Positions 1 to 55,590 of a DNA stretch of 64,000 nucleotides are shown here, one piece after another. How positions within the stretch are numbered: position 1 is the first letter of the stretch; every line of letters starts with the position of its first letter. Location of the stretch: the NCBI GenBank assembly GCA_027493955.1, contig JAOSJT010000001.1, positions 1,255,131-1,319,130 on the forward strand, written 5' to 3'. Position numbers and translations under genes: made by a program. The notes beneath the pieces are model-generated. The model saw only the letters and a list, made by a program, of their open reading frames with translations, searched no databases and was not told where the DNA came from. Source of the DNA: Bacteroidia bacterium. Lineage in GTDB: Bacteria; Bacteroidota; Ignavibacteria; SZUA-365.

Positions 1-3000
1 TTCTCCAGGGCACGAGCGCTTCCTTGTTGTAGGTGAAGGGCGCATAGGCGCGTCCGTTCTCGGTAAGACCCGACCACATCGGACTGTTGAGCAAACGCAT
101 GGGTCTGCCCTGCAACTCTTTGTAGCTGATGCGTACGCCGCGATTTTTCTCGGCCAGATGCGCCAGAGGCAAACCCACCTTTTCTTCCATGTTGCGATAC
201 GAGCGCCAGGCGAGTTCGCCGTTGGTGACGGTTGCGAGTTTGAGAATGGCGTCGCAGACCTGTGTGTCTTCTTTGAGCGAGGGCATGCGCAGACCATTGC
301 TGAATTCCGACGGTTGCTCCGCGGCGAGCTTGTCGTATTCATCCTCGACCATGTAAATCGTGCCGTGCGCGCCAAGACCGTTGCTGCGCACGCGAGGACC
401 CAGCGTCGTATACTGCTCGTACAGCTTCCGGTAATCGCGAGTGACGATAGTCATGCCGGGCATGGTCTTGCCGGGCACGGCCTCGATCTCGCCTTTGTAC
501 CAGTCGCGCATGTCGGGCTGAGCGATCTCCGCGGCCGAATCATGCGCCAGCGGCGTGAGCACGAGGTCGCGCACGGGCTCGGGAAAATGCCGCGCCGCCA
601 GTTCCGAAAACTTTTTCGATATGGCGGAAAAAATCTGCCAATCGCTTTTCGATTCCCAACAGGGCGGCACGGCTGCGGACAGCGGATGGATAAAGCTGTG
701 CATGTCCGTCGAATTCAGATCGGCCTTCTCGTACCAGGTGGCCGCGGGAAGGACGATGTCCGAATACAGCGCCGAAGTGTCCATGCGGAAATTGAGATCC
801 ACGACGAGATCCATTTTGCCATGCGGCACCTTGTCATGCCACACGATTTCCTTGACGCTGTCTTTTGCCAACTCGCCCGCTATGGCGTTGTCATGTGTAC
901 CGAGGTAATGCCGCAGGAAGTATTCATGGCCTTTGCTGCTGGACATCAGGGCGTTGCCGCGCCAGATGTACCACACGCGCGGCCAGTTTTCCTCCGCGTC
1001 AGGATCCTGCACGGAAAAGGTTAAACGACCATCTTTCAGCCGGGCGATGACCTCCTCACGAATGGAGGCGTCGTCGCTCTTCCCTTCCGCGGCCAATTCC
1101 TGCATCAGCGCGACGGTGTTGCGGTTGAATTGCGGGTAGAACGGCAGCCACCCCTGACGCACGGCGCGGACTTGCACGTCTATCGTATGCCCCTTCGCGA
1201 TCGATCCCTGCATCTCGCGCTGCGGCACGGTGTGATAATCGGTGAATTCCTTTTCGTAGCGCCACTGATCGGTGTTGACGTAATGCCAGCTCGGCGCGTT
1301 CTGCAGGCGCGAGGCGGCGTGCCAGTCCTTGGCGAAGGCGATGGCGCCCCAGGATTCGCCTGGAGCGAGTTTTTCCTGCCCCACATAATGCGCCAGTCCG
1401 CCGCCGTTGACGCCCACGCAGCCGGCGAACATCAGCGCGTGTATCGCGGCGCGGTACATCAGATTCGCGTGATACCAGTGATTGATGCCGGCACCGATGA
1501 TCACGGTGCATTTGCCGCCGGTGCGCTCGGCCGTCACCGCCCACTCGCGCGCGAATTGAATGAGGTCCTGCCTGCTGATGCCGGTGTACTTTTCCGACCA
1601 GGCCGGCGTGTACGGCGAATTCTCGTCGTCGTAATCCATCGGATAATCGCCCTTCAGTCCGCGGCTCACTCCGTACTGCGCCATGAGAATGTCGTACACG
1701 GTGGTGACCAGAGCGACGGAGCCGTCCGCCAGTGTCAGGCGACGCACGGGGACGTCGCGATACAGATTGCGGCCTTCGGCGAAATCGTCGAAACGGACGG
1801 GTACGACGTCGTCGCGTGCGTCCAGGAAGCTCAGCTCGGGTTCTATGGCGCTGCCGTCGCTGCCGTCTTTCAGTTCCAGATTCCATTTCCCTTTTTCGCT
1901 GCCCCAGCGATGCCCGGCGCTGCCCATGGGCATTTTCGGCGCATCGCTCGCTGCATCCCACATGAGGAATTTCCACTCGCCGTGCTCTTCGCCGGAGTAA
2001 CGCTGCAAGCGTCCAGCGCGCAGAAGCTGTCCCGCCTCGTATGCGTCTTTCTCTTTCGTAATCTCCACAAGAAACGGCGCGTCGGAGAATTTTTTCGCAT
2101 AGTCTATGAAATACGGCGTCTTCGTCTGTACGTGATATTCGGTCAGCAGCACGTGATTCACCGCCATCCACCAGGCGCCGTCCTGACCGGCGTTGAGCGA
2201 CACCCACTTGTCGGCGTATTTGGCCACCTGATTGAAGTCCGGCGAGAATACGTACATCTTCGTCCCGTTGTGACGGGATTCCGCGGCGAAGTGACAGTCC
2301 GGCGTGCGCGTCATGTTGAGATTGGAACCCATCACCGCGAGCAGCTTGGCGTTGTACCAGTCCGCGCTTTCGTTCACGTCCGTTTGCTCTCCCCAGGTTT
2401 CGGGTGAAGCCGACGGCAGATCGCAGTACCAGTCGTAGAAGGACAGCGCCACGCCTCCCATGAGCTGCAGCATGCGCGCGCCGGAGGCATAGCTGATCAT
2501 GGACATTGCCGGAATGGGCGAAAAGCCCGCGATACGGTCCGGGCCGTGTTTCTTGATTGTGTGAATGTTGGCGGAGGCCATGATTTCCAGCACCACGTCC
2601 CAGGTTGTGCGGCGGAATCCCCCCTTGCCGCGCGCCACTTGCCAGCGCTTGCGGGATTCGGGATTGTTCATCAGCGATTGCCAGGCCTCCACCGGATCGT
2701 CAAAATCCACCCGCGCCTTGTTCCACAGGTCCAGCAGCGCCCCGCGGATGTACGGATACTTGACGCGCAGCGGACTGTACAGATACCAGGAAAAGGAAAT
2801 CCCGCGCTGGCAGCCGCGCGGCTCATAGGGCGGCAAACCGGACTCCAGCATCGGATAATCGAGACCCTGCATTTCCCAGGTGACGATGCCGTCCTTGACG
2901 TGAATCATCCACGTGCAACTGCCGGTGCAATTCACGCCGTGCGTGCTGCGCACCACCTTGTCGTGCTGCCAGCGGTTGCGATAAAATTCTTCCCAGCCGC

Positions 3001-3058
3001 GATCCTTCGCGTCTTCCTCGTCCCGAATCCAGGGATTGCTGTTGGCGCTGTCTTTCAT
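1..3058 (-). CDS. narG: Respiratory nitrate reductase alpha subunit (partial)
   Basis: Catalytic molybdopterin subunit reducing nitrate to nitrite with electrons from the quinol pool. About 1019 residues are present and the C-terminus lies beyond the left edge. Near the N-terminus H40, C44, C48 (HGVNCTGSC) and C83 (RGCQRG) match the four ligands of the FS0 [4Fe-4S] cluster of NarG. Asp209 in [10 protein letters not shown] matches the molybdenum-ligating Asp, and NMTRTPD follows. There is no Tat signal at the start ([10 protein letters not shown]), so the protein should be cytoplasmic; this argues against the periplasmic selenate/chlorate/perchlorate relatives. It lies 58 bp downstream of a diheme cytochrome c gene in the same direction. 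narH, narJ and narI would be expected beyond the window. The family call is secure; the exact clade is not determined. Confidence 0.94.
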
Positions 3059-3116
3059 GAGTCAGGACTCCATTTCCATTGATGAACGTCGTAGCGGAAT
3101 ACGGTTGAGCGCGGGA

Positions 3117-4007
3117 TTACACCGCATCGTGACCCGCCCTGCGGCGCATGCGTTCCACCAGCGCGCGTCGCACGCTCCTGAATCGCTTGCTCCATATCAC
3201 ATCGAAGAGGCCGAGCACGAGTATCACACCTCCGAGGCCGAAGAGCAGAAAATTCAAACGCGCCGTGGAGGTGTCCGCCGGATTGCGCTGCAGCGTGTTC
3301 TCGAAATAGGCGACGAGTGAACGAATCTCCCCCTCCGTAAGCGGCGTCTGCTTGAACACCGCCTGCATGGTGGGTGTGGCGGGCGCGGCCAGCCAGGTGC
3401 TCAGATTTTTACGATTCTGATAGCGCTCGAATACCGTGGTCAAGTCTGGACCCAGCGTGCCGCCGCCGAGACCACCAATGCCTTGCACCGCATGGCAGCT
3501 CATGCAGGACGCGGCGCCGTTGCTCAGACGAACGTCTCCGTTGAACAACTTGCGTCCCGCCGCCACATCGGCAGCGGTAAAGGGACGGTCGTCCACCTGC
3601 ACGCCCTTGAATTCCGACGCTTCCAGCGCTGATTCCTTTTCGATCAGCGCGTACAATTCCTCGGCGCGGGCCCGCGTCACCGTGGGCAGCGTGGGCATCA
3701 TCACACCACGAAACTCCTGCAGCAATTGCCGCGCGGTCGCGTCACCCTTGTCTATCATGGCCTTCGGATCCATCATGAAGGACAGCGTCCACTCCTTTTC
3801 GCGGCGCTTGTGCACGTCCTTCAGATCGGGACCCGTGAGCGGACCGCCGCCAATGCTGTGGCAGCTCATGCAGTTCTGCCGGAAAAACGTCGCCGCGTCT
3901 TGCGCCGCACCGTACTCGCTCAGGAGCAGAACGGCCGCTGCCGCAAGCAGCGCGTGGAGGATAACGCATCGTGGATGGAAGTTCGAACAAGTACGATGTG
4001 ACGGCAT
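3117..4007 (-). CDS. narC: Membrane-anchored diheme cytochrome c, NarC-like
   Basis: A 296-residue exported electron carrier. It has an N-terminal signal peptide (hydrophobic LHALLAAAAVLLL, then AAQ), two CMSCH heme-binding motifs in two cytochrome c domains, and a C-terminal transmembrane segment (FLLFGLGGVILVLGLF) followed by a basic tail. A diheme cytochrome directly upstream of narG is the arrangement of narC in Thermus, where it serves the nitrate respiratory complex, so the same role is inferred here. I chose the ATG at 4007 over the one at 4028. It has AGGTG a few bases upstream and fits the signal peptide better, whereas 4028 lies inside a palindrome. The family call is firm; the symbol rests on context. 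Confidence 0.78.
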   Translation of the reverse strand: MPSHRTCSNFHPRCVILHALLAAAAVLLLSEYGAAQDAATFFRQNCMSCHSIGGGPLTGPDLKDVHKRREKEWTLSFMMDPKAMIDKGDATARQLLQEFRGVMMPTLPTVTRARAEELYALIEKESALEASEFKGVQVDDRPFTAADVAAGRKLFNGDVRLSNGAASCMSCHAVQGIGGLGGGTLGPDLTTVFERYQNRKNLSTWLAAPATPTMQAVFKQTPLTEGEIRSLVAYFENTLQRNPADTSTARLNFLLFGLGGVILVLGLFDVIWSKRFRSVRRALVERMRRRAGHDAV

Positions 4008-4020
4008 GCCTGACACCTGT

Positions 4021-4051
4021 CTGTGCATTGATAGAGCATATCAATGCACAG
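4021..4051. promoter_or_regulatory. Perfect palindrome upstream of the nitrate reductase genes
   Basis: Inverted repeat with 13-bp perfect arms (CTGTGCATTGATA / TATCAATGCACAG) and a 5-bp spacer. It ends 14 bp upstream of the chosen cytochrome start. The inner TTGAT...ATCAA halves resemble FNR/CRP-family half-sites, but they are 7 bp apart instead of the canonical 4. A hairpin in the leader RNA is also possible. There is no T-run, so it is not a simple terminator. Confidence 0.6.
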
Positions 4052-4261
4052 ACTGTGCCAACACTCCGGGCTGCACCCAAATCCCTCAATAACCATGCGA
4101 TTTAGACAAACAGCGCCATCCCCCATCCTCTCCCAACCCCGCCGCTGTAAACTCCCGTATGCGGCATTTCCAGGCGCTTCCTTCAATACGCGGCGATTTT
4201 CCACGATTCGCCACTGTATACCGAAGTATGCAGCATCGGAGCGCCCTGCCAACGCGGAGAC

Positions 4262-4614
4262 GCAGAGGGGATTTTAACGCAGAGGCGCAGAGTTGCAAAG
4301 GCGCAGAGGGACATTTAACGCAGAGGCGCCCCTTCGACTACGCTCAGGAGTTGCAAAGGCGCAGAGGGACATTTAACGCAGAGGCGCAGAGTTGCAAAGG
4401 CGCAGAGGGACATTTAACGCAGAGGCGCAGTGTTGCAAAGGCGCAGAGATACATTTAACGCAGAGGCGCAGAGTTGCAAAGGCGCAGAGGGACATTTAAC
4501 GCAGAGGCGCAGAGTTGCAGAGGCGCAGAGGGACATTTAACGCAGAGGCGCAGAGTTGCAAAGGCGCAGAGGGACATTTAACGCATAGGCGCAGAGTTGC
4601 AAAGGCGCAGAGGG
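4262..4614 (+). repeat. 41-bp tandem repeat array, CGCAGAG type
   Basis: About eight direct repeats with a 41-bp period (GCAGAGGCGCAGAGTTGCAA, then AGGCGCAGAGGGACATTTAAC). One unit carries an inserted CCCTTCGACTACGCTCAGG hairpin element (4329-4348). Short open frames through it are artefacts of the repeat. The stretch between 4052 and 4261 shows nothing recognisable. Confidence 0.9.
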
Positions 4615-4725
4615 AAATGATAGGGGGAGATATCGCCGAAACCTCGATCATGATGTTGGTGGCGGAATGATCCATCCCGATCGTTTCAGAATGAACCTAG
4701 CCACATCAGACCTAAAAAAAATTCC
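4615..4725. repeat. ~110-bp element, copy 1
   Basis: Starts AAATGATAGGGGGAGATATC and ends with an A-run and ATTCCT. A nearly identical copy lies at 5490-5601. Each copy is flanked on the left by forward CGCAGAG units and on the right by the same motif in reverse, so each element plus flanks forms a large imperfect inverted repeat. Confidence 0.85.
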
Positions 4726-4873
4726 TCTGCGTCTCTGCATCTCTGCGACTCTGCGTTAAAATCTCCTCTGCGACTCTGCGTTAAAATCTCCTCGGCGTCT
4801 CTGCATCTCTGCGACTCTGCGTTAAAATCTCCTCTGCGACTCTGCATCTCTGCGACTTTGCGTTCAATTCCCC
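4726..4873 (-). repeat. CGCAGAG-type repeat array, reverse orientation
   Basis: Units of CTCTGCGTCTCTGCATCTCT and GCGACTCTGCGTTAAAATCT are the reverse complement of the array at 4262-4614 with a slightly different spacing. The array lies between the ~110-bp element and the GxxExxY gene. Confidence 0.85.
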
Positions 4874-4978
4874 TCCCCTGCGGCTCCACCATAGTACCGT
4901 AGATTGGACTTGCCCGCCGCGTCTTTCCTGTACATGTTGCATAGTCTGTTCTTTTTTCAACAATGGGGAGTTGTCGTC

Positions 4979-5359
4979 ATGCACGAAAACGATGTCAGCC
5001 AAATAATCGTAGATTGCGCCATCGAGGTACACAGAACACTGGGCGGTCCCGGTCTGCTTGAACGTGCGTACGAGGAACCTCTCGTCTGGGAGTTGGGGCG
5101 GGCGGGGATGAACGTCGAACGGCAGCTCGTTCTGCCGATCAGCTATAAGGGAACACCTCTCGAATCCAGTTTCCGCATCGACCTGCTGGTGAACAATCTC
5201 GTGCTTGTCGAGTGCAAGGCCGTTTCGCTATACAACGATATTTTCCAGGCGCAGGTATTGACCTATCTGCGCCTGATGAATCTGAAGCTGGGACTGGTCA
5301 TCAACTTCGGTGAGAAGCTCGTGAAGGACGGAGTGCACCGCGTAGTAAACGGCCTCTAA
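4979..5359 (+). CDS. GxxExxY family protein (PD-(D/E)XK-like)
   Basis: 126 residues. The signature G-x-x-E-x-x-Y is visible as GLLERAY, and RIDLLVNNLVLVECK supplies a D...ECK core typical of PD-(D/E)XK nuclease-like folds (PF13366/TIGR04256). The biochemical role of the family is not established. The ATG at 4979 gives the usual family length; the longer frame from 4904 adds a leader with no family resemblance. The gene is enclosed on both sides by CGCAGAG arrays and two copies of a ~110-bp element, suggesting that gene and repeats spread together. No partner gene is adjacent. Confidence 0.88.
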   Translation: MHENDVSQIIVDCAIEVHRTLGGPGLLERAYEEPLVWELGRAGMNVERQLVLPISYKGTPLESSFRIDLLVNNLVLVECKAVSLYNDIFQAQVLTYLRLMNLKLGLVINFGEKLVKDGVHRVVNGL

Positions 5360-5361
5360 CC

Positions 5362-5489
5362 GCAGAGGCGCCGGGGAAAAGAGGGGAATGTAACGCAGAG
5401 ACGCAAAGAAGCAGAGGCGCAGAGGAGAATGTAACGCAGCCCTTCGACTTCGCTCAGGGGCCGGCGCAGAGAGGCAGAGGCGCAGCGGA
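5362..5489 (+). repeat. CGCAGAG-type repeat array, forward, degenerate
   Basis: Irregular GCAGAGGCGC and GCAGAGACGCA units directly after the GxxExxY stop codon. A CCCTTCGACTTCGCTCAGGG hairpin element is inserted at 5440-5459. Confidence 0.8.
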
Positions 5490-5601
5490 AAATGATAGGG
5501 GGAGATATCGCCGAAACCTCGATCATGATGTGGGTGTCGGAATGATCCATCCCGATCGTTTCAGAATGAACCCAGCCACATCAGACCTTAAAAAAATTCC
5601 T
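5490..5601. repeat. ~110-bp element, copy 2
   Basis: Second copy of the element at 4615-4725 with only a few substitutions, for example TGGGTGTCGG in place of TTGGTGGCGG. It has the same flanking order: forward repeats on the left, reverse repeats on the right. Confidence 0.85.
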
Positions 5602-5882
5602 CCGCGTCTCTGCATCTCTGCGACTTTGCGTTAAAAATCCCCTCCTCCGCGTCTCTGCATCTCTGCGACTCTGCGTTAAAAATCTTCTCCTCCGCGTCTC
5701 TGCATCTCTGCGACTCTGCGTTAAAAATCCCCTCCTCTGCGTCTCTGCATCTCTGCGACTCTGCGTTAAAAATCTTCTCCTCTGCGTCTCTGCATCTCTG
5801 CGACTCTGCGTTAAAAATCTTCTCCTCTGCGTCTCTGCATCTCTGCGACTCTGCGTTAAAAATCCTCTCCTCTGCGTCTCTT
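5602..5882 (-). repeat. 45-bp tandem repeat array, reverse CGCAGAG type
   Basis: Six to seven copies with a period of about 45 bp (GCGTCTCTGCATCTCTGCGA, then CTCTGCGTTAAAAATC). It stops within a few bases of the stop codon of the neighbouring minus-strand gene. The repeats translate to a QSRRDAETQRR-type artefact and are not a gene. Confidence 0.9.
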
Positions 5883-5885
5883 CGT

Positions 5886-6386
5886 TCATTCCCTCCGCAC
5901 GTAGCGAATCCTGCCTGGAATTTCCGCCGACAGATTCGCATAGGTACGCAAGGTCGCTTCAATGCCTTCCGGGGTGTGCCAGGTCGAATAGATCTCGAGC
6001 GTATCGTGCTCGTAGTCGAAATCCCGCAACAGGGTGAGTGCCGCACCCTCCATCGTCCGGGTTCGCGTATGCCGCAGCATGCCGATGAGCGTACGCAGAT
6101 TCTCGTGATACTCCCGCACGCGGTCTTCATTCCTTCCGAGCAAGGCAAGTAATCTTTGATCGTGACGTAAACGGAATTGCATGGTGACTTCGATTAACAC
6201 GTTGCGCCGAAACGAGTTACCCGGTGCGTGAAATGAAAAATCTACGGCTGTGTACAAATCCCACAGCGCTTTCAGTACCGCCATTCCTTCGTCCTTCTCC
6301 GAAACTAGGTTAAGCGCGTGTACGTCGTACGGACGAAAATAATTGTCGCCCAATATGTCCTCGAGACGTTTGCTGACGGTGTTCAT
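5886..6386 (-). CDS. Unknown protein, 166 residues
   Basis: I do not recognise this family. The protein is soluble and largely helical in composition, with no signal peptide, membrane segment or catalytic signature that I can see. A central HDQRLLALLGRNEDRVREYHENL stretch looks like an amphipathic helix. It is last in a minus-strand group (WYL regulator, AAA+ ATPase, HAD-like protein, two small proteins), with 99 bp to the gene before it, so co-transcription is plausible. Its stop codon abuts a repeat array. Reading-frame length and codon use support a real gene. Confidence 0.6.
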   Translation of the reverse strand: MNTVSKRLEDILGDNYFRPYDVHALNLVSEKDEGMAVLKALWDLYTAVDFSFHAPGNSFRRNVLIEVTMQFRLRHDQRLLALLGRNEDRVREYHENLRTLIGMLRHTRTRTMEGAALTLLRDFDYEHDTLEIYSTWHTPEGIEATLRTYANLSAEIPGRIRYVRRE

Positions 6387-6485
6387 GATTTTCTGGCCCC
6401 CGATAATTGCTCGTTTGCTGTACTCAGTCTCTTTATGCGCTTCGTATGCGCGTATCGTCTGCCTTCGGTCTCGCGAGCGGAGCGC

Positions 6486-6842
6486 TTACGATTCACTCTT
6501 CAACATTCCGCTGAGTGTGAGCATGGCGCAGGTCTTTTCGTCACGGGTCTGCCGCGATATCTCCACAAGCCCCTCTTCGACCAGTGCGCGTACTCCCTGC
6601 TCCACTTCCTCCGGCGTTCGGGTCTTCTTGAATGGCGCGGCTTTGAGCTCTTCCATGCTTACCTCCTCTTCACCTGAATCGCCAAGATGGACGATGACGG
6701 CCAGCAGTTCGATGGTATCGTTGTCCAGTTCCGATTCCAGATCCGATCGCATGTCGTCGTAGGCACTCAGGAAGTTCGTCGTGCGCGGGTCCAATACGCC
6801 GTACGACAGCGTGTCCAGATTTTCGATCAGAATGTCTTTCAT
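6486..6842 (-). CDS. Unknown small acidic protein, 118 residues
   Basis: The family is not recognised. A strong ribosome binding site (AAGGAG) precedes the ATG. The N-terminal half is acidic (DDMRSDLESELDNDTIELLA). The C-terminal half (TPEEVEQGVRALVEEGLVEISRQ...) reads like a winged-helix, with a helix, a turn and a short beta wing. It could be a regulator or adaptor of the AAA+ group. The 230 bp between it and the HAD-like gene hold no convincing gene. Confidence 0.6.
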   Translation of the reverse strand: MKDILIENLDTLSYGVLDPRTTNFLSAYDDMRSDLESELDNDTIELLAVIVHLGDSGEEEVSMEELKAAPFKKTRTPEEVEQGVRALVEEGLVEISRQTRDEKTCAMLTLSGMLKSES

Positions 6843-7072
6843 TGTTTTCTCTCCTTGTGGTACTGTGAAAATTTGCGTGCGGTCACGGGATACCCTACGA
6901 AGCCACGCAGGGCGAAATGGTTCTCAACTCGTTTGCCGCAGCTCCTGAAACCGGCCGGATTGCGGCTGCGGCGAGTTTCAGATGCCGCACAACGCTTCGG
7001 GGACTTCCGTCCGGGGCCGTACTCCCCGCCGCGAGGGGGCTGCGAACGCATCATTCGCCACCTGCCCCATCG

Positions 7073-7593: not shown

Positions 7594-9867
7594 TCATTGC
7601 CGGAAGCCCAGTGTTCTCGATGCTGTTTCAAACGATCCTTCCGCTTCACGCATACATGCCGTTTGCAGGTCGTTCATGCGGAGGACGTCTCCTCGAAGTG
7701 CGGCACTGCGCAGAGCCGCGGCGGCCGCTATGGCGATCTGCCCTCCCGAGAACGGCCATGCGGCGGCGAGATCTTCCAGACGGACATCGGAAGCACGGGG
7801 CACACCCTCGGGGATATGCGCTTCCCACAGCTCTCGCCGTACGGAAAGGTCCGGTCGCTGGAAGAGGATTTTTTCGTCAAAACGCCGGCTGAAGGCCTCG
7901 TCCATCGCTTCGGTGAAATTCGTCGTGGCGACGAGGACGCCCGGAAAGCTCTCCAGATTTTCCAGAAACAAGCTCTGCATCTGGCTGTACATCCGGTCCA
8001 CGCTGTGACCGCTCTCAGCGATGCGATGGGTGAGAAACTGGTCGCATTCGTTCAGCAGCAACACGGGCGGTGCGGCTGCGGAGGCGCACAATTCGCGGTA
8101 TTCGCTGAACAGGGCGGCGACATTCTGCTGGCTCTCGCCTACCCATTTGGACAGTATTCTGCTGATGTCTGTCACGAGCAAGGGGCGTCCGAGCGTGCCG
8201 GCCAGGCCCTCCGCGGCGAAGGTTTTACCCGTACCGGGCTCACCGCTGAACAACAGCAGCAGAGATTCCGTGGGCCGCGACGCGGTCACACCGCTCACAC
8301 CCCAGGTCCGCAGGCGTTCCCGGACTTCGCCGCATACCCCCCGCGCAGCCGCGTCGAGGCGCAGATGCTCCGCCGCGTCGAGTTTCACCGCGGCGAGCGT
8401 GTGACGGGGTATACGGACATCGAACAGTCCGGAGTTGCTGACAAGCAGCGTAGCCGTTTCAGGTTCCTGCTCCGCTGTGACACGACGGAGCATCGCCGCG
8501 GGCATGGCGATATCGGGCGAGCCGAAGGCCATGGTGCGTACGGCGACGAAGCCGTGACGTAGCAGCGGCGAAGATGGCTCGAAGTGGCGGCGCAATTTCC
8601 AGCTTTCCGTCAGACTCGCGCTCAGACGCACCAGAACATCAGGGATGTCTATATAGGTATCCTTCATGCCCGCGAGCATGGCGGTGCCGATGATAAAGCG
8701 CTCGGTCTCGCCGAATCCGTGCTCGCGGATCAGACGTTCGAGCGGGATATCCGCGGTACTGCATGCTGTGCGGGAGAGCAGTTCACGGTACAGCGGATTC
8801 TCGGAAAGAGACGTCCTGGTCACGGAGCTTGCCCTTCGACGCGCGGGTCTCTGGCCGACCGCTTCGTCATACAGATTCTCCAGGAAACCGAGCCACGCGT
8901 CGAGATACTCGCCGTTGCTGGTAAAACCATCTCCGCTGTCGGTTGTCTCCTCTGCTTCTCTGTCAGGCGCAACTGAAGTTCCGCCGCATGATGGCGCGAG
9001 TACGAGTTCCAGGAGGTCCTGACGCAGATCGACATCCATGCGCATGACGCTGCCGCCGTTGTTCAGGGATACGAGTCCGCGCGCGACGAGCGCTCCCTCG
9101 CCGCTGAAATATCTGCGCAATTCGTACATGCTGAAAGGATCGCTGCCGAAGAACGGCGCGAGCTCACGAACTTCTATGCTGTCGCACGACAGTTCCTTGC
9201 GGCACAGCAGAAGCAGCATCTGCCAGTCCAGTTCACTCAGGCCTTCTCTGTTGCGCAGTTCCTCCAGCGGCAGCCGGCATGTGCTGTGCAGGGTGAGAAT
9301 ACCGATGCGGCGACGCATGCTTTCCGTCTCCGCGGGAGCGGAAGCGCCGCTCGTTCTGCCGGAGCGGCGACCCGAACGTCCGCCGGGATGCTGCTGCTGC
9401 AAAAAGTCGTAGAGCGCGTCAATGTAGGCGAAGCAGTCCCTGAAGTAGGCTCTGTTGTCCGCATACCCGGGAAATGCGGCGGCTTCTTCGCACTCAAGCA
9501 GGAGGGTGACGCTCAGGTTCCGCAGTGCCGCTCCGCTGAGCTCGGAGAAAGCGTCCGTCGGATCATCCGGATTTTTGAGCGCGATGAATCCTTTCTCCGC
9601 CAGGCGCGGCAGCACCACATCCCAACGGGGAGTACCCGGTGCGCGGCGCGAAAGCAGCGATATCAAATCGCACCCTTGTACCTCCAAAGCGCCTCGCCCG
9701 GTCTGATGGACGACAAGCGCCAGTGCGGCGATTTCCTCGTCGTTGCAGGGCTCGGGCAGGAGCTCCCGTACTCGTGCGAGCAACTTCCGTGAGAGGCGGC
9801 CGTTTTCCGCTTTGAGAGCTTCGGCCGCGCTGTCCAGTTCGTCGAAAAGCCGCTGTGTGTGTTCCAT
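7594..9867 (-). CDS. AAA+ ATPase with long N-terminal region
   Basis: 757 residues; the ATG at 9867 has GGAG in front of it. The C-terminal third is a classical AAA+ module: Walker A GEPGTGKT near residue 545, an LSKWVGESQQN segment, Walker B VLLLNECD near 605, sensor 1 VATTNF, arginine-finger region SRRFD, and sensor 2 FSGGQI. In Walker B the canonical Asp is Asn while the Glu is kept. The long N-terminal region has no domain I recognise; it carries a low-complexity RSGRRSGRTSG linker. Such proteins usually remodel or unfold partner proteins. The WYL regulator upstream and small genes downstream suggest one functional unit. Confidence 0.85.
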   Translation of the reverse strand: MEHTQRLFDELDSAAEALKAENGRLSRKLLARVRELLPEPCNDEEIAALALVVHQTGRGALEVQGCDLISLLSRRAPGTPRWDVVLPRLAEKGFIALKNPDDPTDAFSELSGAALRNLSVTLLLECEEAAAFPGYADNRAYFRDCFAYIDALYDFLQQQHPGGRSGRRSGRTSGASAPAETESMRRRIGILTLHSTCRLPLEELRNREGLSELDWQMLLLLCRKELSCDSIEVRELAPFFGSDPFSMYELRRYFSGEGALVARGLVSLNNGGSVMRMDVDLRQDLLELVLAPSCGGTSVAPDREAEETTDSGDGFTSNGEYLDAWLGFLENLYDEAVGQRPARRRASSVTRTSLSENPLYRELLSRTACSTADIPLERLIREHGFGETERFIIGTAMLAGMKDTYIDIPDVLVRLSASLTESWKLRRHFEPSSPLLRHGFVAVRTMAFGSPDIAMPAAMLRRVTAEQEPETATLLVSNSGLFDVRIPRHTLAAVKLDAAEHLRLDAAARGVCGEVRERLRTWGVSGVTASRPTESLLLLFSGEPGTGKTFAAEGLAGTLGRPLLVTDISRILSKWVGESQQNVAALFSEYRELCASAAAPPVLLLNECDQFLTHRIAESGHSVDRMYSQMQSLFLENLESFPGVLVATTNFTEAMDEAFSRRFDEKILFQRPDLSVRRELWEAHIPEGVPRASDVRLEDLAAAWPFSGGQIAIAAAAALRSAALRGDVLRMNDLQTACMREAEGSFETASRTLGFRQ

Positions 9868-38504: not shown

Positions 38505-38810
38505 TCCTCTCCGCGCTTTCATTCAATGGCTTCGGTGCAGGGATCACAGAGCTCACAGAGGGGAACAGAGGGCACAGAGAGAGATTTTTATGACGCAGTC
38601 TCTCCGCACTCTCATTCGATGGCTTCAGCGCAGATCGGGAATAGTTAATCGGGAAGTGGGAATCGTTAATCGGGAATCGTTAAACGTAAGTATGCGCATC
38701 ATTCGGAAAGGTGCTTGGTTGCTCTGCCAGCGAACGTTCGACTTCCGCCCAAAAACCTCTCCCCGCGTACGTCGCTCTCGTCGCTCTCATTCGATGGCTG
38801 CGGCGTAGGG
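38505..38810. repeat. Dispersed intergenic repeat modules
   Basis: Three copies of the CGCTCTCATTCGATGGCTTC module (about 38508, 38598 and 38757), with GGAATCGTTAATCGGGAATC direct repeats between them (38636-38690) and CACAGAGG-type units. No gene. Confidence 0.75.
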
Positions 38811-38874
38811 TTCACGGAGGTCACAGAGGGAAACAGAGGACACAGAGGGATGTTTTGCAGTCGCCGCCTCCGTG

Positions 38875-39075
38875 CTCCTCCCCTCCGCGACTCTGTGCAG
38901 ATCCTGAGCGAGGTTTCGCGGTCCCTGAGCGTAGGCTCAGCCACCACCGAAAGGCTGCATCTTCGCGGCTCAGTCTCCTCCCCTCCGCGACTCTGTGCAG
39001 ATCCTGAGCGAGGTTTCGGCGGTCCCTGAGCGTAGGCTCAGCCGCCACCGAAAGGCTGCATCTTCGCGGCTCAGT
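38875..39075. repeat. Tandem duplication, ~100-bp unit
   Basis: Two copies with a period of 100-101 bp: CTCCTCCCCTCCGCGACTCT, GTGCAGATCCTGAGCGAGGT and so on. A third unit starts at 39076 and is cut short. Open frames across this stretch are repeat artefacts. Confidence 0.85.
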
Positions 39076-39289
39076 CTCCTCCCCGCCGCGGCTCCACGCT
39101 CGGGACGGTGCCGGCGAAATGCATTGACAGCGGATGCGGCGTTGCGTAGCTTGTTTTTTCGTGCGCGACGGTTGTCGCGCGGGACGCATCGAAACAGGGA
39201 ACGGCCGGCAGGGCGTGCGTGGTGCAGGGAAACGCGCCCGATCCATCGGAATGTTCGTCATCATCACGGCACAATTACGGGGAAAACTG

Positions 39290-47194: not shown

Positions 47195-47374
47195 CGTCGT
47201 ATCCTTTCAGCGATCATAATCATCGAGTCTTTTGTCGATTTTAATATACGACGGTGATTGGAGCTTGTCAAGTGGCGGAGAAATCAAGGTGAATCGTTCA
47301 ATGTGAATCGTTAATCGTTAAACGTGGCTCGTGAGTCGTGAATCGTTGCAGGTCAAGGACCCTTCACCAACCCG

Positions 47375-47719
47375 AGTGTCGCCCTTCGGGCTGATGGCGA
47401 ATGTGCTGTGCGCGTGCCCCCTCAGCTGAAGCTGGTGGCTAGAGGAAGTGTCGCCCTTCGGGCTGGGGACGTCATCGCTGGGTGCGGAAGTCCCCCAACT
47501 GCCGTTGGGGGATACAGGAAGAGTCGCCCTTCGGGCTCTTCACACTTCACCCTTCACCCTTTACCTCCCTCGTGTCGCCCTTCGGGCTGATGGCGGATGT
47601 GCTGTGCGCGTGCCCCCCCAGCTGAAGCTGGGGGTTAGAGGAAGTGTCGCCCTTCGGGCTCTTCACCCTTTACCCTTCACCCTTTACCTCCCCGTGTCGC
47701 CCTTCGGGCTCTTCACCCT
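47375..47719. repeat. GTGTCGCCCTTCGGGCT / TTCACCCTTTACC repeat array, left part
   Basis: Units of GTGTCGCCCTTCGGGCTCTT followed by CACCCTTTACC runs. They alternate with hairpin modules such as CCCCCAGCTGAAGCTGGGGG (47614-47634) and CCCCCAACTGCCGTTGGGGG. The array is split by the IS3 element; its right part is at 49181-49632. All-frame open reading is a repeat artefact. 47195-47374 holds only GTTAAACG-type motifs. Confidence 0.85.
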
Positions 47720-47790
47720 GGAGTGTCCCGAAGAAATTGCACAGAGAGTTCCCCCCGGTTACCTTTTCAAAAATCACCGGAGACTCTGTC

Positions 47791-48105
47791 ATGGTAAAAC
47801 GAACCCACAAGAAATATGATGCTGCATTCAAACGATCCGTGATCGAGTTGGCTGACAGCACCGATCGACCCGACTCCGCGCTTGAGGAGGAGTTCGACCT
47901 CTATGATGGTGCGATACGCACCTGGCGCCGTCAGCTTCTGACACAGAAGTCAGAGGCCTTTCCCGGCAACGGAAATCTTCCCGCCAGTGATTCTGAACTG
48001 CATCGTCTTCGTCGAGAGAACGAGATTCTCCGTCAGGAGCGCGAAATATTAAAAAAAGCAGTGGCCATCTTCTCGCTACCCACGAAGCCCGGTTCCGGTT
48101 TATGA
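47791..48105 (+). CDS. IS3-family OrfA
   Basis: 104 residues. A helix-turn-helix of the transposase_8 type (MVKRTHKKYDAAFKRSVIEL ... ALEEEFDLYDGAIRTWRRQLL) is followed by a leucine-zipper-like helix (LHRLRRENEILRQEREILKKAV). Near its end lies an A7 run (48052-48058) where a -1 frameshift could yield the OrfAB transposase, as in other IS3 elements. The orfB frame is open across this point. Confidence 0.88.
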   Translation: MVKRTHKKYDAAFKRSVIELADSTDRPDSALEEEFDLYDGAIRTWRRQLLTQKSEAFPGNGNLPASDSELHRLRRENEILRQEREILKKAVAIFSLPTKPGSGL

Positions 48106-48983
48106 ACGCATATCGGAACGAGTTTAGCATCGAAAGGATGGCCAGCGTGCTCAACGTATCGTGCTCAGGCTATTATGCATGGCGTCGTCGTGGCGAGCAT
48201 GCACGCGCCGAGCGCACCGCAGCCTTCGATATGGCGGTCCGGGAGGAATTCCTGCGCAGGAAATCCAGCTACGGCGTACGTCGTCTCGTCAAAGCATTAC
48301 GCAAGCGCGGTTTCGCGTGCGGGCGGAGCCGCGTGGCGGCCAGCATGCGTCGGCAGGGATTGAAGGTCAAGCATCGTCGCCGTTTCATTACCACGACAGA
48401 TTCGAAGCATTCGTATACTGTCTCGCCAAATATGCTCGAACGCCAGTTTTCGGTCGATGCACCTGATACGGTGTGGGTGAGTGATATCACGTATTTGCGC
48501 AGCACCTCCGGATGGTTGTACTTGTGCGTGTTTATCGACCTGTTTTCCCGGAAGATCGTCGGCTGGGAGGTCAGCACATCGTTGCGCCATACAATGGTTG
48601 TGACCGCGTTCAAACGCGCGGCTTGGACGCGAAGCATACGTGCGGGGCTTATCGTGCATTCTGATCGCGGTGTGCAATACTGCTGCGAGGGATTCCGCAG
48701 TGCCCTGCGCCCTTACGGCAGCATTCAGAGCATGAGCAGGAAGGGTGATTGCTGGGATAACGCCGTCGCCGAGTCATTTTTTGCCACGTTGAAGAAGGAA
48801 ATGCCGGAAGGACTTCTCTTCGCGTCGGTGACGGATGCCCGGCGATACCTCTTCGAGTACATTGAACTTGAATACAATAATCAGCGTCTGCACAGCACGC
48901 TGGGCTATCATACGCCGCAGGAACACGAGAATCTGTATTGGTCGAAGAAACGTCTCGGCAATGACATGGAGCAGGCGGCATGA
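48102..48983 (+). CDS. IS3-family OrfB transposase
   Basis: 293 residues. HTH_21 region (RRKSSYGVRRLVKALRKRG) then an rve integrase core with DDE residues: VWVSDITYL (D), IVHSDRGVQY (D) and GDCWDNAVAESFFATLKKE (E). The end (YNNQRLHSTLGYHTPQEHE) is typical of IS3 OrfB. It overlaps orfA by 4 bp and is intact, so the element could be active. Confidence 0.93.
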   Translation: MNAYRNEFSIERMASVLNVSCSGYYAWRRRGEHARAERTAAFDMAVREEFLRRKSSYGVRRLVKALRKRGFACGRSRVAASMRRQGLKVKHRRRFITTTDSKHSYTVSPNMLERQFSVDAPDTVWVSDITYLRSTSGWLYLCVFIDLFSRKIVGWEVSTSLRHTMVVTAFKRAAWTRSIRAGLIVHSDRGVQYCCEGFRSALRPYGSIQSMSRKGDCWDNAVAESFFATLKKEMPEGLLFASVTDARRYLFEYIELEYNNQRLHSTLGYHTPQEHENLYWSKKRLGNDMEQAA

Positions 48984-49180
48984 AACGATATGAGCGAGAG
49001 CAAGGCGCGCAGCGAACCGCGCTGGCAGTCGGGGCGACTGGAGCCCCCAAGAGAGCTCAGGGCCGCCCCGGCGCCACCCCGCGGTTCCTCTGCGCGACTG
49101 CGAACGCGACCACTACAAGCACACTGTCATTTCAATCCGGGGGGAACTCACTGTCCATTTTTTGCGGTACACTCCACCCT

Positions 49181-49632
49181 TTACCCTTTACCCTTTACCT
49201 GCCCCGTGTCGCCCTTCGGGCTGATGGCGGATGTGCTGTGCGCGTGGCCCCTCAGCTGAAGCTGGGGGCTAGAGGAAGTGTCGCCCTTCGGGCTGGGGAC
49301 GTCATCGCTGGGTGCGGAAGTCCCCCAACTGCCGTTGGGGGATACAGGAAGTGTCACCCTTCGGGCTCTTCACCCTTCACCCTTCACCCTTTACCTCCCC
49401 CGTGTCGCCCTTCCCCCCGGGCTGACGCCCGGGGTTAGAGGAAGTGTCGCCCTTCGGGCTCTTCACCCTTTACCCTTTACCCTTTACCTCCCCCGTGACG
49501 CCCTTCGGGCTCTTCACCCTTCACCCTTCACCCTTCACCCTTTACCTCCCCCGTGTCGCCCTTCGGGCCCTTCACCCTTCACCCTTCACCCTTCACCCTT
49601 TACCTCCCCGTGTCGCCCTTCACCCTTCACTC
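49181..49632. repeat. GTGTCGCCCTTCGGGCT / TTCACCCTTTACC repeat array, right part
   Basis: Continues the array interrupted by the IS3 element, with CAGCTGAAGCTGGGGG and CCCCGGGCTGACGCCCGGGG hairpin modules and about six spacer-less TTCACCC units. Another array of the same kind lies at 54815-55590. Confidence 0.85.
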
Positions 49633-49697
49633 TTCCGGTTTTGCTCTTCCTCACGCAGGCGCTACATTGGAGTATCGTAACCGCTACCCGCAAGAGC

Positions 49698-54814: not shown

Positions 54815-55590
54815 TGCGGAAGTCCCCCAACTACCGTTCGAGGTTACAGGTAGTGTCGCCCTTCGGGCTCTTCACCCTTCACCCTTCACCCTTTACCTCC
54901 CCGTGTCGCCCTTCGGGCTCTTCACCCTTTACCCTTCACCCTTTACCTCCCCGTGTCGCCCTTCGGGCTGATGGCGGATGTGCTGTGCGCGTGGCCCCCG
55001 GGCTGACGCCCGGGGTTAGAGGAAGTGTCGCCCTTCGGGCTCTTCACCCTTCACCCTTCACCCTTTACCTCCCCCGTGTCGCCCTTCGGGCTCTTCACCC
55101 TTCACCCTTCACCCTTTACCTCCCCCGTGTCGCCCTTCGGGCTCTTCACCCTTCACCCTTTACCTCCCCCGTGTCGCCCTTCGGGCCCTTCACCCTTCAC
55201 CCTTCACCCTTTACCTCCCCCGTGTCGCCCTTCGGGCTCTTCACCCTTCACCCTTCACCCTTTACCTCCCCGTGTCGCCCTTCGGGCTCTTCACCCTTCA
55301 CCCTTCACCCTTTACCTCCCCGTGTCGCCCTTCGGGCTCTTCACCCTTTACCCTTCACCCTTTACCTCCCCCGTGTCGCCCTTCGGGCTCTTCACCCTTC
55401 ACTCTTCACCCTTTACCTCCCCGTGTCGCCCTTCGGGCTCTTCACCCTTTACCCTTCACGCTTTACCTCCCCCGTGTCGCCCTTCGGGCTCTTCACCCTT
55501 CACCCTTCACCCTTTACCTCCCCCGTGTCGCCCTTCGGGCTCTTCGCCCTTTACCCTTCACCCTTTACCTCCAGCTGTCGCCCTGCGCAC
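54815..55590. repeat. GTGTCGCCCTTCGGGCT / TTCACCCTTTACC repeat array
   Basis: About 13 direct repeats with a period of mostly 42-51 bp: GTGTCGCCCTTCGGGCTCTT, then two to three CACCCTT units and TACCTCCCC. It contains one GGCCCCCGGGCTGACGCCCG hairpin module (about 54995). The period differs by whole TTCACCC units, indicating slippage. It has no unique spacers, so it is not CRISPR. TTTAACGTTTCACGTTTAAC follows at 55600-55630. Confidence 0.9.

Follow-up and report, generated by a model that had tools for sequence, protein, structure and literature searches.

The GxxExxY gene of the locus studied here lies between two gene-less hairpins built from arrays of short words, and the locus is probably an intricate version of a small mobile element that is widespread and disperses mini-palindromes in trans. 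Across the genomes of the phylum that we searched, the number of dispersed gene-less palindromes depends on the presence of a GxxExxY gene. The locus occupies positions 4260-5881 of the window, i.e. of the whole stretch of 64,000 nucleotides that was analysed.

The focal locus and its protein

The original prediction gave the order array, element, mirrored array, gene, array, element, mirrored array, and both the order and the coordinates hold. In window positions the features are:

4260-4617, plus strand: forward array 1, purine-rich, CGCAGAG, 41-bp unit (TRF, word count)
4330-4348, no strand: CCCTTCGACTACGCTCAGG insert within forward array 1 (direct repeat D7 with 5440-5458, 95%)
4618-4717, no strand: element 1, about 100 bp, read as loop of the first inverted repeat (99-bp genome query)
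4718-4875, minus strand: reverse array 1, CTCTGCG, 3' arm of the first inverted repeat (inverted pairs I1-I6)
4979-5359, plus strand: GxxExxY gene, predicted PD-(D/E)XK nuclease of 126 aa (TIGR04256, PF13366, motif, AlphaFold2)
5361-5490, plus strand: forward array 2 (5 CRCRRAK words on the plus strand, 0 on the minus strand)
5440-5458, no strand: CCCTTCGACTTCGCTCAGG insert within forward array 2 (direct repeat D7, near copy of CCCTTCGACTACGCTCAGG)
5493-5592, no strand: element 2, about 100 bp, read as loop of the second inverted repeat (99-bp core matches that of element 1 at 96%)
5593-5881, minus strand: reverse array 2, 45-bp unit (TRF, word count)

TRF resolved forward array 1 into 6.5 copies with a period of 41 (4348-4615, 96%) and reverse array 2 into 6.3 copies with a period of 45 (5598-5881, 96%). 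The polarity of CRCRRAK words (K = G or T) is perfect in all four arrays, with 23 on the plus and 0 on the minus strand in forward array 1, 0 and 10 in reverse array 1 and 0 and 19 in reverse array 2; neither element contains such a word. CGCAGAG and CTCTGCG together occur 50 times in 4250-5890, compared with 0.35 on average and at most 5 across 2000 runs of a first-order Markov model based on the window. The gene does lie between two direct copies, as had been proposed: the element and the adjoining array ends are repeated at 4588-4761 and 5463-5636 (174 nt, 94% identical). The predicted element of about 110 bp is indeed duplicated, but it has a core of about 100 bp and forms the central spacer of an inverted repeat, so that each element is best seen as a loop and the arrays as its arms. 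The pairs I1-I6 of the first inverted repeat match at 78-82% over 83-110 nt. The gene starts with ATG at 4979, an alternative TTG start being possible at 4904. Its flanking words are pyrimidine-rich on the upstream side and purine-rich on the downstream side, the reverse of most GxxExxY loci.

Inserts of the CCCTTCGACTACGCTCAGG type are nested in CGCAGAG arrays elsewhere, too (locus L013, about 9076-9094, and others), and are perhaps another repeat family using the arrays as target. An origin of the CCCTTCGAC..GCTCAGG inserts from GIY-YIG genes was rejected, as no such hairpin was found within 400 nt of 30 GIY-YIG loci of the family. Further repeats of the window are gene-less CACAGAG/CTCTGTG arrays at 38545-39094 (101-bp tandem, 10-11 CRCRRAK words per 400 nt) and extended tandem arrays in which CTTCACC heptamers are accompanied by CCCTTCGGGC, at 47284-49635 and 54853-55584, the latter with a 51-bp unit at 55025-55584.

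The source genome (5.24 Mb, one contig) contains two GxxExxY genes. The second, at 487 kb, has another arm word, with ACCACAGAAAAGACAGAA before and pyrimidine-rich sequence after the gene, and its arms are unrelated to those of the focal gene (5-mer cosine 0.002). The element is not bound to a fixed locus. A genome-wide search with the 99-bp query gave 10 matches, namely the 2 focal copies, 7 further copies (84-86%) at 756-761 kb in clusters at 756.6-757.3 kb and 760.3-761.2 kb, and 1 partial copy at 2979 kb; all 8 non-focal matches are without a GxxExxY gene. The doublet CGCAGAGNCGCAGAG occurs 27 times in seven regions of the genome and its reversed control not at all. A neighbouring 166-aa protein of the focal unit was found only in its own genome and, weakly, in one relative (34% over part of the protein).

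In profile searches the focal protein matched TIGR04256 with 130.5 bits (cut-off 35) and, as its sole Pfam match, PF13366 (PDDEXK_3) with 122.9 bits (cut-off 22). The motif residues D...ExK...QxxxY are present together with the name-giving G, E and Y, and G25, E28, Y31, D68, E78, K80, Q92 and Y96 are invariant in 20 sequences from relatives. QxxxY is typical of the Cas4/RecB group. An AlphaFold2 model (pLDDT 95.1) shows a compact PD-(D/E)XK core, whose best structural match is 4ic1 (SSO0001), which we take to be a Cas4 (Foldseek E 2.4e-3; Z 9.2, with 101 residues superposed at 3.9 A). It is followed by nucleases of the restriction type at Z 8.1-8.2, by a Wolbachia factor at 8.0 and by a Holliday junction resolvase at 7.3, a Z below 8 possibly reflecting only a common arrangement. 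No solved chain matched by sequence. The model and the motif residues point to a predicted Cas4-like PD-(D/E)XK nuclease.

A role as a defence gene was considered and rejected: neither GxxExxY protein of the source genome matched a PADLOC model at E 0.01, PHROG gave no match, no GxxExxY protein was found among 50,697 phage records at E 1e-5, and only 8 of 72,556 plasmid records carry one. This rarity on plasmids and the absence from the phage records offer no route for a spread of the gene between species.

Arms and words around GxxExxY genes in other genomes

GxxExxY genes were found in 12 of 12 genomes of the own taxonomic family, and in relatives most of these genes lie between inverted arms whose sequence is particular to each locus. 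We aligned the upstream 400 nt of each gene to the reverse complement of the downstream 400 nt. An arm score of at least 40 was obtained for 27 of 76 named GxxExxY loci (the best 80 of 572 confirmed loci, minus 4 without 150-nt flanks) vs 4 of 445 control ORFs from the same loci. The named loci span Bacteroidota, Verrucomicrobiota, Planctomycetota, Proteobacteria, Armatimonadetes, a member of the Spirochaetota and an archaeal MAG. The same score was reached by 7 of 30 GxxExxY loci of the phylum and by 16 of 24 own-family loci (24 out of 25, the sub-cut-off match L066 being left out), compared with 6 of 30 four-helix-bundle genes and 1 of 30 ParE toxins; each phylum set comprises 30 loci from many more matches. 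At a score of at least 34, 67 of 130 GxxExxY loci have arms, i.e. only about half. The focal arrangement of direct repeats on either side of the gene (score at least 60) recurs in 11 of 76 loci vs 5 of 445 controls.

The arm words follow the pattern CRCRRAK (CACAGAG, CACGGAG, CGCAAAG, CACAAAG, CACGAAG and others). Their start-to-start spacing is most often 9 nt and mostly 8 to 11 nt, which is close to one helical turn. In the 400 nt upstream, GxxExxY loci contain on average 2.7-3.4 words on the coding strand, and in the 400 nt downstream 2.6-3.0 on the other strand, compared with 0.4 at control ORFs. At least 3 words on both correct sides were counted in 24 of 76 named, 9 of 30 phylum and 8 of 23 own-family GxxExxY loci (one further own-family locus had no 150-nt flanks), but in only 6 of 430 controls, the word test being limited to the ORFs of the 76 loci, and in none of 30 ParE and none of 30 four-helix genes. 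GxxExxY genes are thus very often adjacent to such repeats in other genomes as well.

These results modify the prediction of a composite mobile or recombining unit with CGCAGAG repeats as its ends. The focal gene does lie between two complete gene-less hairpins, so that 'composite' suits this copy, but most loci consist of one gene and two arms (medians over 50 armed loci: unit 562 nt, arm 41 nt). Architecture and word grammar are shared between loci, whereas the word itself varies and already differs at the second gene of the source genome.

Genes for four-helix-bundle/S23 proteins (TIGR02436) were also observed between arms, made of other words such as GGCTACTGGCTACTGG and AGTATCAAGATATGAGTATCAAGAT (loci L177-L206). 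Since S23 genes have inverted arms (6 of 30) but no CRCRRAK arrays (0 of 30), the CRCRRAK word belongs to the GxxExxY family.

The arms appear to follow the protein and not the genome, though weakly at unrelated sites. Arms of different genes within one genome have a mean 5-mer cosine of 0.077 (12 pairs, own family). Between genomes the value is 0.409 at a protein identity of at least 55% (19 pairs, many of which share a site) and 0.108 below it (122 pairs). The overall Mantel correlation between protein and arms is 0.196 (reached by 1 of 1000 permutations); after removal of shared-site pairs (67 loci) a weak correlation of 0.167 is left, reached by 10 of 1000 permutations. An action of the protein on the repeats, as proposed, is supported by their co-occurrence and by this tendency of the arms to follow the protein. 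In one case, the GxxExxY proteins of an archaeal MAG (L128) and a bacterial MAG (L132) are 70% identical and have similar arms (cosine 0.60) at unrelated sites, possibly by transfer between domains or by contamination.

Arms flanking one small gene between host genes might also act at the RNA level, as in 23S rRNA intervening sequences, pairing in the transcript to form a stem for RNase III processing or for shielding of neighbours. S23 genes have the same layout in our data; the accessible part of one report describes them in rRNA intervening sequences that bear a terminal stem (PMC4990558). RNA pairing, however, should leave G-U pairs, and among transition-type mismatches in 67 arm pairs we counted 111 G-U (sense) and 149 A-C. 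Rfam gave no match to a known RNA or intron, neither in the focal region (3000-7000, E 1), which thus has no match to 23S rRNA, nor in 10 other loci, and the dispersal of gene-less forms does not fit an RNA-level role either. We regard this explanation as improbable. In view of the agreement of arms within but not between copies and of the lack of a G-U mismatch excess, we think that the palindrome is probably used as folded DNA and not as RNA. The excess of A-C over G-U has a binomial p of 0.02, and 9 S23 arm pairs deviate likewise (18 vs 6).

At one orthologous site, 174 of 249 cells changed in both arms still match; at two others the values are 52 of 88 and 62 of 127. We give these values little weight, as chance alone would produce a match in about one third of the cells, the cells depend on one another and repeats align uncertainly.

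Gene-less palindromes and a site in several states

We searched 198 genomes of the phylum for the end pattern AACCRCRRAGN{0,4}CRCRRAG, using the reversed pattern as a control for composition. The 101 GxxExxY carriers contain 531 array ends, a count that includes the arms of the GxxExxY genes themselves, and the 97 non-carriers contain 20; the reversed pattern occurs 9 and 12 times, respectively. The excess in carriers persists under permutation of labels within taxonomic families (p 2e-4), and among carriers the numbers of gene copies and array ends are correlated (Spearman 0.52). One genome with a single GxxExxY gene contains 34 ends (G195). The strict pattern is absent from 37 of the 101 carriers, and four non-carriers have 2 to 4 ends each (G068, G118, G121, G148). 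One mini-palindrome of the intergenic site treated below gave 15, 10, 10 and 35 matches in four of six genomes of the genus taken as Flavobacterium and none in the other two. In word usage, gene-less ends resemble the gene arms within the same genome more than those of other genomes (0.61 vs 0.46, p 0.028). This comparison is based on the ends listed for 12 genomes, several of these lists being shortened, and on the 8 of these genomes that passed the word minimum, loci L408-L415 being left out.

Such an association could also arise if the arrays were multiplied by another agent, or by slippage or template switching, and GxxExxY accumulated in these regions or stabilised them, for instance as a repair nuclease that removes hairpins. 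Tandem growth of the arrays is plain at the focal locus from the TRF periods, template switching alone could match the two arms of one copy, and a hairpin-trimming nuclease would co-occur with hairpins, too. But the word grammar is specific to GxxExxY genes and not shared by the S23 genes, array ends are almost missing from non-carriers, and arms track protein similarity, if weakly, at unrelated sites. An explanation by hitchhiking is therefore unlikely in our opinion, and we prefer the reading as a mobile element.

The intergenic DNA of a gene pair labelled hemN and cyclase was compared in 61 genomes of a genus taken as Flavobacterium, 56 of them with the cyclase gene (the labels hemN, cyclase, mutS and thpR were assigned by eye). 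The site is empty (at most 60 nt) in 15 of 56 loci. It holds a gene-less palindromic or word-bearing insert of 67-125 nt in 22 loci, which were sorted by length and sequence reading and of which some have related CGCAGAT/GCGGAT wording. A GxxExxY element is present in 7 loci and a GIY-YIG gene (PF01541) between short palindromes in 3; the others comprise 7 loci with other content, 1 assembly gap and 1 locus without the upstream gene, which was not readable. Comparison of filled and empty sites revealed no target-site duplication or exact junction, the best flank identity between a GxxExxY-filled and an empty site being only 0.73-0.78. The possibility that mini-palindromes are simple deletions of a GxxExxY copy was rejected for the closest pair at this site (L269/L268, 90% flanks), which differs in words, and for that case only. 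At some other sites, e.g. in 7 own-family loci labelled mutS site, the unit looks old and inherited.

GIY-YIG genes were seen in further contexts. In L239, L246 and L241 the gene is located in CTGAA...TTCAG palindromes at the site that elsewhere holds the GxxExxY element. Small GIY-YIG genes of the family represented in the window lie beside a tRNA gene in L295, L296, L298, L301, L305, L306 and L317, and in several of these loci the GIY-YIG gene is followed by the 3' part of the tRNA once more, together with the terminator.

One site that is empty, gene-less or filled among related genomes would also be expected for a homing endonuclease gene, whose product cuts the insert-free allele, whereupon recombination copies the gene into that same site. 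GIY-YIG proteins are a classical homing class, and a GIY-YIG gene uses the same site here. Against homing, the sites differ between loci (flank homology in 48 of 2,211 pairs from 67 loci), and one genome can hold several GxxExxY sites rather than one conserved cognate site. Homing would, moreover, leave the dispersed gene-less palindromes and the arms unexplained, and we attribute little probability to it.

A candidate mobile element compared to known systems

In the reading of a mobile element, the autonomous form would be a unit of about 560 nt with the GxxExxY gene between two inverted arms of about 41 nt, composed of helically spaced CRCRRAK words. The encoded protein would be a minimal nuclease, predicted to resemble Cas4 and lambda exonuclease. 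Gene-less arm-loop-arm palindromes of the same grammar may be moved by it in trans, by analogy to REP palindromes and RAYT proteins. In the focal unit, a single GxxExxY gene would then be flanked by two gene-less hairpins that belong to the same local family. The substrate cut by the nuclease would be the palindrome, probably in the form of an extruded hairpin or a single strand, and copying via the folded-back strand would re-template one arm from the other. Points against this reading are the matched arms at only about half of the loci, the carriers without and the non-carriers with array ends, the units that look old, the weak protein-to-arm correlation once shared sites are removed, the rarity on plasmids and absence from the phage records, and the reversed word orientation at the focal gene.

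Several known systems share parts of this picture. REP/RAYT systems (REPtrons) likewise have a small nuclease-type gene flanked by palindromes and intergenic gene-less copies whose number goes with the gene; in our data, too, dispersed gene-less palindromes depend on the gene, with 10-35 mini-palindromes per genome in four of six genomes. RAYT proteins are HUH tyrosine transposases. By contrast, GxxExxY is of the PD-(D/E)XK type, and its arms are word arrays that vary between copies; an HUH Y1 transposase as in REPtrons is absent, the protein matching PDDEXK_3 only and PD-(D/E)XK nucleases being its nearest structures. MITEs of DDE insertion sequences also occur as gene-less inverted-repeat copies beside an autonomous form, but profile searches of the focal gene gave no DDE transposase of insertion sequences, and the inverted repeats agree within a copy and not between copies. 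We file the system with the autonomous-plus-gene-less palindrome elements, with a protein differing from RAYT. Cas4 and lambda-exonuclease nucleases share the predicted fold and the motif residues, but not a sequence match to any solved chain, and no CRISPR array or cas gene was noticed in the flanks of the focal locus (3-8 kb).

The nearest idea we found concerns the hupL MITE of Candidatus Thiomargarita nelsonii, for which the accessible part of the report proposes derivation from an element with a PD-(D/E)XK_2 protein (TIGR01784), i.e. dispersed inverted-repeat DNA with a PD-(D/E)XK protein as its proposed parent (PMC4853749). That protein belongs to another PD-(D/E)XK family, and the same part of the report describes 19-bp inverted and 10-bp direct repeats and no word arrays (PMC4853749). 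The 23S rRNA intervening sequences with S23 resemble our units in that a very small gene is enclosed by a terminal inverted repeat, and in Coxiella three tandem heptamers precede the S23 ORF, according to the sections available (PMC4990558). They differ in protein and words, sit in rRNA and are excised by RNase III. TAACTGA heptamers, short-word direct repeats in intergenic DNA as well, are described in the accessible sections of another report as patchy in Beggiatoaceae, Cyanobacteria and Bacteroidetes and without a known agent (PMC4679880). Their word is a different one, and S23, four helix and GxxExxY are unmentioned in the text (PMC4679880). GxxExxY itself appeared in the available parts of the literature found only as a passing annotation, and no description of its association with repeats was found in the open literature, a search that mostly left out subscription papers and bioRxiv preprints.

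A wider proposal, to which we are inclined to give somewhat less than even credence, would be a new class of selfish DNA, in which a lone Cas4-like nuclease recognises not a fixed sequence but the shape and grammar of folded word arrays with helical spacing, and in which the matched arms of each copy are re-templated at every move. The unrelated S23/four-helix protein would then have reached this layout by convergence, using other words, and rRNA intervening sequences would be one particular form of a general type of intergenic element.

The recurrence across many phyla suggests a little-noticed selfish DNA element that spreads together with gene-less copies. GxxExxY is carried by half of the sampled genomes of the phylum (101 of 198), and no function was stated for it in the literature found; its tie to intergenic short-word palindromes gives both a testable role. 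If the proposed explanation is true, a Cas4-like nuclease reduced to its core is enough to maintain a mobile element, a point of relevance to the recruitment of such nucleases, and an abundant class of intergenic repeats would gain an agent.
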